In this document: positions 26,177 to 30,367 of the stretch, piece by piece
How positions within the stretch are numbered: the stretch's first letter is position 1
How the letters are laid out: each line of letters starts with the position of its first letter
NCBI GenBank assembly: GCA_028691975.1
Contig: JAQUYF010000012.1
Location: 1-40,233, forward strand
Origin: Bacteroidales bacterium
GTDB taxonomy: Bacteria > Bacteroidota > Bacteroidia > Bacteroidales > UBA932
Direction: 5' to 3'
Length of the DNA stretch: 40,233 nucleotides
Notes under the pieces: generated by a model
Database searches by the model: none
Told to the model about the DNA's origin: nothing
The model's input: only the letters and a program-made list of their open reading frames with translations
Program-made: the position numbers and the translations under genes

Positions 26177-28342
26177 ATGAAAAAGTTGTACATTGTCATG
26201 TCGCTTATGGTTCTGCTCTTAACGGCAGGATGCAAGCCGGAGCCCTATATCATAGTAGAAAAATCCGATTATAAATTTGACTGTAACGCAGCAACGGATT
26301 CTGTCATATTTACGACCAATTATGCCTGGACAACTCAGACTTACAACTCATGGATAACTGTCTCTCCGGCAACGGGAGCTACCGCAAGAGGTGTAGTTAA
26401 ATTTCAGGTTAGCCAAAACAAAACTTACGGCGCAAGAGAAGGTACCTTTGCCATTCACTCCGTAGACGGACAGCTTGAGCACATAATCCGTATATCGCAG
26501 GCTCAAAATGATACTTTGGTTCTGAATTATGACTCTTTTACTGTTCCAAGTACGGGAGGTACTGTTGCCGTCAATGTGATTACAAATGTTGATTTTGAAG
26601 TAGAAATAGATTGCAACTGGATTACACAGTCTAAAGCACTTTCAAGCAAAATGGTTTACTTGGAAGTTGATGCCGCCCCCGACAAATATTCATCCAGGGA
26701 GGGAAAGGTATATATCAATTCGAAAGACTCTACCGGCTTGATGAAATATAGAAAAGAGATCACCATTACCCAGCAGCAGGACAACTACTTGTCTTTAGCG
26801 CATAAGCTTTACAGTGTTGAAACGGGTGGTGAGACCTTTGATGTGGATGTTACCACAAATATCCCGTACAGGGTGATAATTCCTCCCGAATACGCTTCGT
26901 GGGTTAAAGAGGTTACAACCAAGGCTCTCCATACTGATTCATATACCTTTACAGTCTCACCGAATACCACTTACAGTTGGAGAAATGCATACATCGTGTT
27001 TGCCGGCACCACTACTTCTCTGACAGATACAATCAAAATTACTCAAGACCAGACAAACTATATGCAACTTGAGGAGGAGCTTTATCAACTCGATTCTAAA
27101 GTTAACACCATTGATGTCGTGGTCAATACCAATGTGGAAATTTATCACCAGATTCTGGACGATGCGCAGAGTTGGCTCTCAATCGTTGCGACCAAAGCTC
27201 TATCGGACAAGCATTTCAATGTAACTACAACCTCTTTCGCCGGATCAGAAACAGAGGTATTTAGAAGCGGACGCATAGTATTTTACAATAACGAAAAGAA
27301 TGTCTCCGACACTTTAACCGTAGTGCAGACTGCCGATGGCGTATATTATGTGCGGTTAGCTTCTCCGGGCACCTTAAGTACTTATTTTGAGTCAAGTGAA
27401 TATTCTCAGGTTCAAAAGATTATTGTTACAGGAACTGTTCGAGACAGCGATATTACATTCATCAGGGACAACTTAAGAAATTTAACGCATATAGATTTCA
27501 GTGAGTTGACCAATACCTCTCTACCGTATAATTCATTTTACAACAATAGTGATGGTATGCCGTTGTTGAAGCGTATTGTTTTGCCTCAGGCACTTACCAT
27601 TATCAACCACCATGCCTTTACCAATTGTGCAAAACTGGAAGATATTGTTCTTCCGTCAACTATGACCTCCATCCAACAAAATGCGTTCTCAGGGTGTACA
27701 AGTTTGAAGAGTATCAACCTTCCAAACAGCATCACAACAATCGAGAGCAGCGCATTTGCAGAGTCAGGATTAACAGCCATTACGTTACCAAGCTCACTTT
27801 CTACTATTTCTCAGGCTTTGTTTAAAGGTTGTACAAGCCTTGCCTCCGTAACCATAGGAATAGGTGTTAACAGTATTGGTATTGAATCTTTCTACAACAC
27901 AGGACTTAAGAGCGTGGTTGTACCATCAAATGTCACTTCGATTGCAAGAAGTGCATTTTATCAATGTACATCGCTGGTAACTGCGGTACTGCCGGAGAGC
28001 CTGACTACCCTTGATGCTCAGGCATTTGCATATTGCTCATCGCTGACATCCGTTAATATCCCAACCTCATTTACCTCAATTAACAACAATATGTTCCGAG
28101 AATGTACTGCTCTAAAGACAATTACAATCCCGGCAGGCATAACGAGGATAGACTATAATGTCTTCTCAGAGTGTTCATCTCTTGAGTTGATTATTTGTAA
28201 TGCAAGTACGCCACCGACTCTGGTATCCGATCCATTCAGTGGCGTTAACAAAGAGACATGCGTGCTGCGTGTCCCTGCAGGCTGTGCAGATACCTACAAA
28301 GCTACCTATATGTGGCAACAGTTTGTCAACATTACAGAGTAG
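26177..28342 (+). CDS. Surface lipoprotein with four BACON-like domains and BspA-type leucine-rich repeats
   Basis: The 721-residue product has a lipoprotein signal with lipobox LTAGC (Cys19). Four beta-rich repeats of about 90 residues follow (roughly 27-110, 113-200, 205-290, 296-385). Each has a TTN-(Y/V)-x-W-like strand and ends in an ITQ(A/D/Q)Q or VVQT strand, the BACON pattern. Residues about 410-690 are LRR_5/BspA repeats with the recurring theme aFxxCtsLxsIxLPxslttI, capped by PPTLVSDPFSGV and CVLRVPAGCADTYKA. BACON domains are linked to mucin or glycan binding and BspA repeats to host or surface adhesion. The role here is inferred to be binding, with no catalytic domain seen. It is monocistronic-looking. 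Confidence 0.88.
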   Translation: MKKLYIVMSLMVLLLTAGCKPEPYIIVEKSDYKFDCNAATDSVIFTTNYAWTTQTYNSWITVSPATGATARGVVKFQVSQNKTYGAREGTFAIHSVDGQLEHIIRISQAQNDTLVLNYDSFTVPSTGGTVAVNVITNVDFEVEIDCNWITQSKALSSKMVYLEVDAAPDKYSSREGKVYINSKDSTGLMKYRKEITITQQQDNYLSLAHKLYSVETGGETFDVDVTTNIPYRVIIPPEYASWVKEVTTKALHTDSYTFTVSPNTTYSWRNAYIVFAGTTTSLTDTIKITQDQTNYMQLEEELYQLDSKVNTIDVVVNTNVEIYHQILDDAQSWLSIVATKALSDKHFNVTTTSFAGSETEVFRSGRIVFYNNEKNVSDTLTVVQTADGVYYVRLASPGTLSTYFESSEYSQVQKIIVTGTVRDSDITFIRDNLRNLTHIDFSELTNTSLPYNSFYNNSDGMPLLKRIVLPQALTIINHHAFTNCAKLEDIVLPSTMTSIQQNAFSGCTSLKSINLPNSITTIESSAFAESGLTAITLPSSLSTISQALFKGCTSLASVTIGIGVNSIGIESFYNTGLKSVVVPSNVTSIARSAFYQCTSLVTAVLPESLTTLDAQAFAYCSSLTSVNIPTSFTSINNNMFRECTALKTITIPAGITRIDYNVFSECSSLELIICNASTPPTLVSDPFSGVNKETCVLRVPAGCADTYKATYMWQQFVNITE

Positions 28343-28358
28343 CCAAAAGCAATTGGCT
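28341..28358 (+). terminator. Short hairpin after the BACON/LRR gene, weak terminator candidate
   Basis: AGCCAA (28341-28346) and TTGGCT (28353-28358) form a 6-bp stem with a 6-nt loop, starting at the stop codon. No T-run follows (the sequence continues TAAAGCTATTTAT), so termination here is only possible. Confidence 0.35.
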
Positions 28359-28370
28359 TAAAGCTATTTA

Positions 28371-28378
28371 TATATTTG
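28371..28378 (+). promoter_or_regulatory. -7 promoter box in front of the structured RNA
   Basis: TATATTTG matches TAnnTTTG exactly. It is 316 nt upstream of the next coding start (28695), far more than for any other box in this window (7-56 nt), so it probably drives a non-coding transcript or a long leader. Confidence 0.55.
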
Positions 28379-28446
28379 TACCATTAACCAGATAAAAAAA
28401 CAAAAGTTAAGAAAGTAAAATTATAACATACATAATGCATTAGCTA

Positions 28447-28649
28447 TTATTTCGCGTTTACCGAAGCCCAGGAAACTTCATATACAAGAGCCGAATAATA
28501 ACAAGTAAAAGAGGACTACGATAGTAACTCTTTTTGCCGGTAAATAATAAGCCATGCTCGCACTTTTGGTGTGGGCTATCTTTATTCCGGCAATAAGGTT
28601 TCTATCCTGGGCACCTTGGTAAACGCAGTAAGATGGCCCACGCCTTTTT
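28447..28649 (+). ncRNA. Structured non-coding RNA candidate, 6S-like rod architecture
   Basis: This is the core of the 352-bp gap 28343-28694, which has no supportable gene. Paired segments: GCGTTTACC (28454-28462) with GGTAAACGC (28618-28626), perfect 9 bp; GCCCAGG (28466-28472) with CCTGGGC (28606-28612), perfect 7 bp; AAACTT (28473-28478) with AAGGTTT (28596-28601 region). The closing stem may extend by TTATT (28447-28451) with AGTAA (28627-28631). A 29-nt unpaired strand (28479-28507) follows. A small hairpin AAAGAG/CTCTTT (28508-28513/28528-28533) has inner ACTA/TAGT. The terminal arm is TTGCCGG/CCGGCAA, AATAA/TTATT and GCTCGCAC/GTGTGGGC. A T5 run at 28645-28649 marks a likely 3' end. 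A long rod, asymmetric bubble and about 200-nt size resemble 6S RNA. A leader of the next gene is the alternative. Confidence 0.6.
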
Positions 28650-28694
28650 ATTGCGCTAAGTGATTGATAGTTGTGCTACAAACCATCTACATTT

Positions 28695-30206
28695 ATGAAA
28701 TCACTATCACCAATTTCAATCACTTTGACCTGTTTTTTACTATTCTCATTTATTCTCTATTCATGCGTCAAATTTCCAAAATTTGACCCTGTTGAACCTA
28801 TTGACCCTGTCTCACCTGGAGACACTACCGTAACCGGGGAGAATCCAAACGTTACTCCGGCATATATTTATCCGTTTTCGGACGAAGTATCAAACTCAGT
28901 AGCTGAAATCACTCTCTCTTTTGATACTAACGTAGATATCTCTACTCTTTCTGCAGAGATTCCATATCTGAAATACAACAAGGAGTGGTTACTTCTTCTC
29001 ACCCAGGACGATTGCAAGCAGGCTGCCTATTGTAGAACATGGGCAGTTATCAATGGCAGACCGGTATCATCATCGGAAACCATTGAAATCCCTCCATATT
29101 GGGTTGAATTGTATTATACTTCTTTGCATCTGAGAAGTAACGACTTACCTCCCACCATTATAAAAGAGAGCACTCCGCTATGTTCTACGGATGGCGCAGG
29201 AAAAGATGTTCGATTTGCCTTTACCACTACCCTTATGCCGGAAGGCAACTCTATGAAATCTGCAATCTCGGTCACGCCGGGCTTTACAGACAATTATTAC
29301 CGTTTTTATGTGCGTTCGGGACTTGCATGGGAAGATGTTACGGAGATGGTCAATTATGGAGTAGGCATCGCTTTTCATGATGTAGATTCCTATGATGTCT
29401 CTACCCCTTCTGTAATTGCAACACATTACGGGATTTGTCAGGATACAATAAAAAGTCGTCTTGCAGGACGTGGATGCAAGATGTTGACTGAACCTAACGG
29501 AAATAAGGCATATATAGTTGCAGCCCAGGAATTTCCGGACATCCTTACAATAACTGCACAAAGCGGCGGACAAAAGTTGTACCCATTTCAGGTTAGTGGA
29601 GATCTTAAGCAGGCAGTGTTGGAACGCACCGTGTATGATAACTTCACCGATATTTATTCAAAGATAAATACGGAAATGTCAAAGCCAAAAGAGACACGCG
29701 AAGCTATTTTAATAGGCGTTCATGGGACGAATAACGAGTGGATGGATTTTTTTAGAGATATCCGCAACAAATATGGCAAGGGTGGCGCTGACAATGTATG
29801 GTTTACAAGCCAGGAAGAGTATTTCGAGTACAATTATTACAGAGTTCACAGTAGCGTGGCCCTTTCTCAAATAGATTCGAAAACGGTTAAACTTACCGTT
29901 ACTCTACCAAGCGAAAACCTCTTTTACTACCCCTCAATCACACTAAATCTGCTTGGACTTAATAATGCAAATGTGATATCCGTGAGTTCTAACAATACTG
30001 TCAGCGGTCTTTCTCACGCAAAATATGGTACAGGAGAGATGATCAACATTGATTGCCGCAAGCATCTGGCCGCTATGGCTACTCACTATGTGGAGACTTA
30101 TGAGTCCGATAAGAGTGTATCATATTTCAAATGGGACGCAGAGTACTTCACCAATATGCTAAAAGACTCCGACACCAAAACCGCACTACTGGAAAGAATT
30201 CAATGA
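28695..30206 (+). CDS. Lipoprotein with a divergent polysaccharide-deacetylase-like (NodB) region
   Basis: The ATG at 28695 is preferred to one 8 codons upstream because it places a Lys directly before the hydrophobic signal. This gives 503 residues with a lipoprotein Cys at 24 (LYSC), then a Pro/Asp/Thr linker. The folded part has EWLLLLTQDDCKQAAY (97-112), where TQDD resembles the catalytic DD of NodB enzymes. It also has GIAFHDVDSYD (224-234), ATHYG, GVHGTNNEWMDFF and YGKGGADNVWFTSQEEYFEY (360-379). That last block recalls the end of NodB-like domains in Bacteroidetes. The zinc-site HxxxH motif is not intact, so activity is doubtful. The family call is from pattern memory only. No good promoter box lies directly upstream; the RNA region at 28447-28649 separates it from the nearest one. 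Confidence 0.7.
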   Translation: MKSLSPISITLTCFLLFSFILYSCVKFPKFDPVEPIDPVSPGDTTVTGENPNVTPAYIYPFSDEVSNSVAEITLSFDTNVDISTLSAEIPYLKYNKEWLLLLTQDDCKQAAYCRTWAVINGRPVSSSETIEIPPYWVELYYTSLHLRSNDLPPTIIKESTPLCSTDGAGKDVRFAFTTTLMPEGNSMKSAISVTPGFTDNYYRFYVRSGLAWEDVTEMVNYGVGIAFHDVDSYDVSTPSVIATHYGICQDTIKSRLAGRGCKMLTEPNGNKAYIVAAQEFPDILTITAQSGGQKLYPFQVSGDLKQAVLERTVYDNFTDIYSKINTEMSKPKETREAILIGVHGTNNEWMDFFRDIRNKYGKGGADNVWFTSQEEYFEYNYYRVHSSVALSQIDSKTVKLTVTLPSENLFYYPSITLNLLGLNNANVISVSSNNTVSGLSHAKYGTGEMINIDCRKHLAAMATHYVETYESDKSVSYFKWDAEYFTNMLKDSDTKTALLERIQ

Positions 30207-30367
30207 CAATCGGGATTAATTCATACCTTGAAACAAGAACCTTACAAGAAGAATCTTGCAAAAAGTTGCAAAATATATACTTGACTAATCGAAATAAGTT
30301 GCAATCATGCTTAACAGAAAGGTTAATAACAGCCTGAAAGAATGGCTCCTATCAAATTTATTTTCGA

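Follow-up and report, generated by a model that had tools for sequence, protein, structure and literature searches.

A structured RNA family, mostly heading restriction-modification genes in Bacteroidales, with a possible role as a portable 5' leader

The locus and the predicted fold

The window analysed here is the whole 40,233-nt stretch of a Bacteroidales contig (JAQUYF010000012.1, assembly GCA_028691975.1). Within it, a 352-nt gap (28343-28694) separates the stop codon of a BACON/LRR gene from the ATG of a forward-strand gene (28695-30206) matching Pfam PF15421, a putative polysaccharide deacetylase, with a lipoprotein-like start as judged by eye. A preliminary description of the sequence had pointed to this gap, to an exact TAnnTTTG box within it, and to a set of nested helices that might form either the 6S RNA of this organism or a new RNA. 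The gap and the box are as described there, the latter (TATATTTG) lying on the forward strand at 28371-28378, 66 nt before a conserved 15-mer, GCATTAGCTATTATT (28437-28451, forward strand); we take the box to be the Bacteroides -7 element. An AACATA motif (28425-28430, forward strand) is found just 5' of the RNA, and in 14 of the 19 family members introduced below it lies no more than 20 nt from the 15-mer.

The sequence from 28452 to 28655 has a predicted folding energy of -72.8 kcal/mol, compared with -47.2 +/- 4.4 for shuffled versions (z -5.83, none of 200 shuffles being as stable), and the whole gap is likewise exceptional (z -4.32, 0/100). All of the helix arms named earlier can be located, and their joint stability is beyond chance. 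On the forward strand they make up a rod (28454-28626) consisting of P1 (28454-28464 with 28616-28626), P2 (28466-28473 with 28605-28612), a side hairpin (28508-28533) that is the small 6+4-bp hairpin already noted, P4 (28534-28540 with 28587-28593), P5 (28546-28551 with 28581-28586) and the apical hairpin P6 (28556-28576), with strands A (28556-28564) and B (28568-28576); across 18 aligned members, 98% of P6 cells are paired. Two details needed revision. An unpaired strand given as 29 nt does exist, but in the centroid structure it measures 34 nt (28474-28507), five of which (28488-28492) are paired in the minimum-energy fold. The arms AAACTT/AAGGTTT are present, but their helix competes with a neighboring one and is missing from the minimum-energy fold.

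The longest helix in the gap had gone unnoticed: 15 uninterrupted pairs between GGUGUGGGCUAUCUU (28568-28582) and AAGAUGGCCCACGCC (28630-28644, strand A'), on the forward strand, incompatible with the GCTCGCAC/GTGTGGGC apical hairpin (P6) because both use strand B. Directly 3' of A' is the expected T5 run (28645-28649, forward strand), which gives B:A' the look of a terminator. When B:A' is forced in the window, the best fold has -62.9 kcal/mol, 12.8 less stable than the rod at -75.7, and B:A' is thus the less stable state in this energy model, which ignores pseudoknots. A further choice concerns a tail element, GATTGATAG (28662-28670, forward strand), whose predicted partners are either the 15-mer, forming a helix (P0) of which the 15-mer is the 5' strand, or the start-codon region, where 28658-28667 pairs with 28716-28725 in a forward-strand hairpin (28658-28725) holding the ATG at 28695 in its loop.

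Compared with G026, whose O-methyltransferase is the most similar among the congeners, the window has an extra segment (28343-30367, about 2 kb) made up of the RNA and the PF15421 gene: at the G026 locus (L053), the stop codon of the LRR homologue, 53% identical, is 4 nt from that of the M23 gene. Gain of the segment by transfer is a simpler reading than its loss in G026. The PF15421 gene was absent from all 36 congeners searched, and the family occurs in seven of 393 genomes of the order, the window's own genome included. With this gene as guide, no related loci were found; in G108 the homologue comes after a different ORF, which leaves no space for the RNA.

Across the genus, what lies between the O-methyltransferase and M23/mraZ genes (26177-30367 in the window) is itself variable, with an LRR gene in G026 and, in the window, an LRR gene, the RNA and the PF15421 gene. 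By eye, the O-methyltransferase-M23 gaps of seven congeners each hold an ORF, which we take to resemble mscL, and the RNA was not found in them. Near the PF15421 N-terminus, the window has three overlapping copies of an 18-nt sequence at 9-nt spacing (28783-28818; TTGACCCTG/TTGAACCTA), and in G049 (L048) the PF15421 homologue is broken near its start by what looks by eye like an IS66-type insertion.

A structured RNA family without an Rfam match

A structure model of the window RNA (R1), run on the 393 genomes of the order, gave eight matches at E <= 1: the window copy itself, three weak matches, and four full-length ones from other families (G546, G742, G680, G543) that score 66-86 bits. As few candidates per genome were scored, a lack of matches in the remaining genomes counts for little. 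GCATTAGCTATTATTTCGCG is identical in the first five copies, and all five carry the 15-mer exactly. Used as a search key in the same genomes, the 15-mer occurred at 22 places in 18 genomes, compared with six for a reversed-pattern control. Seventeen of these places were read as true copies; the other five (in G524, G565, G782, G441 and G527) were dropped, none being matched at E <= 0.1 by R2, a second model built from the first five copies. At this threshold R2 recovers 16 of the 17, including 12 of the 13 not used in building it, and the one missed, L303, carries the 15-mer and aligns with the other members. One more member, L229, was the only one of 78 viral-contig methylase loci to score better than E 1 (0.07 with R1, 0.011 with R2; two others reached 1.7 and 2.1), and is no unbiased find, since it was taken from methylase loci to begin with. 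With the window copy, this makes 19 members of the leader type.

Other searches returned little. At the DNA level the window copy stood alone in its own genome (one place), among relatives (1/100) and in the genus (1/40); phages gave nothing, and nine plasmid records matched in pieces only, at E 4. The pattern GCGTTTACCNNNGCCCAGG occurred in 18 viral stretches and a looser gapped pattern in at least 117 stretches of genome contigs, none of the former and none of the 80 of the latter that were scored being matched by R1 at E <= 1. A 20-mer and a pattern for one subset of members (group 2) were absent from viral contigs; the homologous leaders as queries found nothing in plasmids or phages (one collection each for the group-2 leaders). 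R1 applied to six nearby loci gave partial helices at best (E 0.14), and no match in 397 other genomes of the family, a weak absence because strict filters left few candidates to be scored per genome.

Two weak matches, L196 and L197 (L203:3857-4005 and L204:7759-7909), are by eye probable remote members and stand outside all counts. They have a similar rod and, by eye, a B:A' helix before a T6 run, without the GATTGATAG tail; one precedes a gene for a 314-aa secreted-type protein, and the other, on a short contig, has no long ORF behind it. A third, L198, overlaps an ORF and was judged a chance match.

By covariation, the window RNA belongs to a structured RNA family. In an alignment of 18 members, 49 of 56 pairs are altered on both sides and 91.5% of cells are paired, compared with 34-41% for slid versions of the structure, the alignment having been fitted to the structure model and so leaning towards it. 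This is the covariation among homologous sequences that the preliminary description had named as a check. A model-free MAFFT alignment of the 12 group-2 members gave, with RNAalifold, P1, P2, P6, the terminator-like hairpin and the start hairpin, with 12 of 50 pairs changed on both sides and a covariation term of -3.51. For the first five copies the term depends on the alignment: it is unfavorable (+0.88) with MAFFT, where RNAalifold nonetheless draws P0, and -7.9 with the model-fitted version. P0 lies outside covariation testing, its 5' strand being the search key.

Could this be the 6S RNA of the organism? A rod of about 190 nt with a large one-sided bubble is what one would look for, and the Bacteroidales-1 RNA (RF01693), a suggested Bacteroidales 6S, is similar to the window RNA in length and clade. 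The gap, however, matched none of the 6S, 6S-Flavo and Bacteroidales-1 models at E <= 10, its sole Rfam match at that level being MicX (11.5 bits, E 5.9), and at gathering score Rfam had no match in the window or in 20 loci with homologues. 6S RNA is expected to be general among relatives, whereas the window RNA was missing by DNA search from all 39 congeners, which argues against its being 6S.

A separate Bacteroidales-1-like stretch is also present in the same genome. Although RF01693 has no match there at E <= 0.001, it gives weak full-length matches (33-36 bits) in three congeners, and one of these is 81% identical to G000:C27:8090-8292 (L014:1501-1703) in the window's own genome, which itself scores 24.3 bits (E 0.38). 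This stretch is probably the genus's diverged Bacteroidales-1 (suggested 6S) RNA. Scores for four copies in the genus are 24-36 bits, below the gathering score of 60, so that a 6S label for them is provisional and this lineage may escape the Rfam model. Nor would 6S be expected to stand before varied genes, most of them for restriction-modification, and we consider it extremely unlikely that the window RNA is 6S or a variant of it; the other suggestion made at the outset, a new RNA, agrees with the covarying homologues and the lack of an Rfam match at gathering score.

Competing pairings and possible control of the gene behind

Two mutually exclusive predicted pairings recur in most members. 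The nine-pair core of B:A' is complete in all 12 group-2 members (108/108 cells paired) and in the window, i.e., in 13 of the 18 members counted (L229 being left out), with both-sided exchanges; G596 has 8/9, and the four other group-1 members have 6/9, five of them contiguous. Permuting A' among members gave p 0.005 for group 2 and, for all 18, 0.002 with Watson-Crick pairs and 0.0005 with G-U pairs added, figures which are lenient because the members are related. Strand A' is followed by U-rich sequence in 18/18 members tested.

For the tail, a helix of GATTGATAG or its variants with the 5' element (P0) is available in 19/19 members; the longest such helix has 7-11 pairs, and in G596 and G680 it lies in a different register. 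The competing start hairpin averages 10.2 pairs compared with 6.3 in shuffled sequence, and in 16/19 members no more than 25 of 500 shuffles reach it (again leniently, given relatedness); three members fail this test, namely G076b (166/500), G596 (316/500) and G680 (40/500), and two are borderline: G076a (23/500) and the window, where the hairpin, taken by itself, is weak because 22 of 500 shuffles do as well. The hairpin is made of other sequence, with pairing kept, in G696, G076a and L229. In the window, where this arm is degenerate in its usual place, 10 pairs form with an arm inside the coding sequence and the ATG lies in the loop; G076b also has its arm within the coding sequence.

In all 19 members the RNA is on the same strand as the gene behind it (its cargo), with 45-68 nt between the end of A' and the ATG, the start of this stretch being an estimate for L229. 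Eleven of the 19 have an exact TAnnTTTG box at a distance of 60-90 nt on the 5' side of the 15-mer, and eight do not; mononucleotide shuffling gives a chance expectation of 0.37 for positions -95 to -55. Between A' and the ATG there is none (0/19). From this distribution, transcription of the cargo would most likely require passage of the polymerase through the RNA.

The reading that we favor, and hold to be somewhat probable from these sequence comparisons, is that of a portable 5' leader, of a family outside Rfam, which would control in cis the gene behind it. Control might have two steps. Transcription would start about 50-80 nt before the RNA, and strand B would then pair either with A, completing the rod, or with A' beside the U-run, altering whether the polymerase stops. 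If it continues, the GAUUGAUAG tail could leave the start codon free by pairing with the 5' element, or mask it by pairing with the start-codon region. The choice of state would be set by a signal that these cells, or their phages, have in common; cargo proteins as dissimilar as these would hardly share autoregulation, which is why such a signal is proposed. In the window, the leader would govern the surface-polysaccharide-type gene.

The U-rich sequence after A' in every member tested could also mark the end of a free-standing small RNA, acting in trans or as the RNA part of a defense system, with the cargo merely lying behind it. L196 and L197, which keep the rod and a by-eye B:A' before the T6 run and lack the tail, would suit this, as would an apical domain that, chiefly in its P5 arms, varies between near-identical copies in the manner of an identity helix (see below). 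The box count, however, makes the gene seem dependent on read-through, the start hairpin draws on the RNA's own tail, and the cargo proteins are too dissimilar for one common protein partner; a free-standing RNA therefore seems to us unlikely, though worth keeping in mind.

Exchangeable cargo and relation to known systems

In 15 of the 17 true copies, the RNA is followed at once by genes for restriction-modification or for related restriction systems, five kinds in all; the other two precede a sulfatase and an unplaced ORF. The window copy, with its putative deacetylase, is unlike the usual pattern. In G546, G742, G680 and G543 the gene right after the RNA encodes an EcoRI-type adenine methylase (Pfam PF13651) and is followed by a second gene that is GmrSD_N/HNH by Pfam in the first three and a partial ORF alike by eye in G543; PADLOC, on two of each, calls type II MTase and REase.

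Restriction-modification genes are hazardous to a new host, and their expression needs timing. Riboswitches and attenuators are 5' leaders with mutually exclusive pairings, and the family would resemble them in having a conserved structured domain 5' of a gene, an alternative terminator-like pairing and start-codon masking; it differs in that its cargo is not one pathway, and in its lack of a known ligand and of an Rfam match. What seems new is an RNA family without an Rfam match that mostly heads restriction-modification genes in Bacteroidales. If a structured sense leader is indeed shared by unlike restriction systems, it would be an added layer of control over mobile Bacteroidales defense genes, it could be used to find further defense cargo, and it would raise the question: what does the RNA sense?

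A possible precedent is the D12-methyl RNA motif, an RNA candidate near DNA methyltransferase genes; if it is in Rfam 15, neither the window nor the 20 loci matched it, and its name is not among the literature matches listed. Control modes of restriction-modification systems have been reviewed (PMC12707154): as covered in its main text, they comprise proteins, promoter methylation, antisense RNAs (EcoRI, Eco29kI) and hairpins, the last at REase starts. The present family is like the antisense and hairpin modes described there in acting, if it does, at the RNA level on restriction-modification genes, with one methylase family (EcoRI-type) in common; it is unlike them in that those antisense RNAs, according to that text, arise inside genes, whereas the present RNA is a structured sense leader, about 250 nt long, that unlike systems share. 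"Riboswitch" and "leader" have no matches in that main text. The RNA is not described in the available text of the literature searched (including PMC8040213, PMC11109978 and PMC12707154), and may stand unnamed in a structured-RNA survey, motif tables having been outside this search.

Exchange of cargo behind a constant leader can be seen at one orthologous locus. G758a (L311) and G696 (L310) have in common what lies upstream, the genes on the far side of the cargo and, outside the apical domain, the first 200 nt of the RNA. One species has a methylase/nuclease pair as cargo, the other a sulfatase, and the RNA tails near the ATG differ as well. Together with the extra segment in the window relative to G026, and with cargo that starts right where the element ends, this might suggest that the element works mainly as DNA, its palindromes forming a docking or recombination site for cargo exchange. 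G-U pairs and compensatory changes, however, indicate pairing as RNA. Nor does any inverted-repeat pair join the ends of the window segment: seven pairs were found within 28343-30367, one of them running from 28564 to 30169, and these are not terminal. No recombinase was recognized in a by-eye view of the ORF ends listed. A mainly DNA-level element appears improbable to us, and more so than the free-standing RNA.

The leader itself is not uniform. In two pairs of near-identical copies, differences are concentrated in the apical domain: 18 of 58 positions, compared with 5/205 elsewhere, between G580b (L314) and G734 (L315), and 19 of 60 compared with 2/143 between G696 and G758a. They lie mainly in the P5 arms, which by eye re-pair. 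The G580b and G734 methylases are identical over 250 residues, after which their C-termini diverge, and the nucleases are 98% identical; a guess from this one pair would be that P5 tracks methylase specificity. An extended version of the leader reading, speculative and in our estimate rather doubtful, would have an anti-phage cassette of exchangeable genes headed by this RNA as its constant part, and would make the hypervariable P5 an identity element for cargo specificity, so that the helix would change whenever the cargo or its DNA specificity does, with the leader sensing infection and releasing a restriction or surface-modifying cargo (the window deacetylase, the sulfatase).

One cargo is perhaps broken: in G708 (L305), the leader's ATG opens a frame of 56 codons, and a 772-aa ORF in another frame has no Pfam or PADLOC match.
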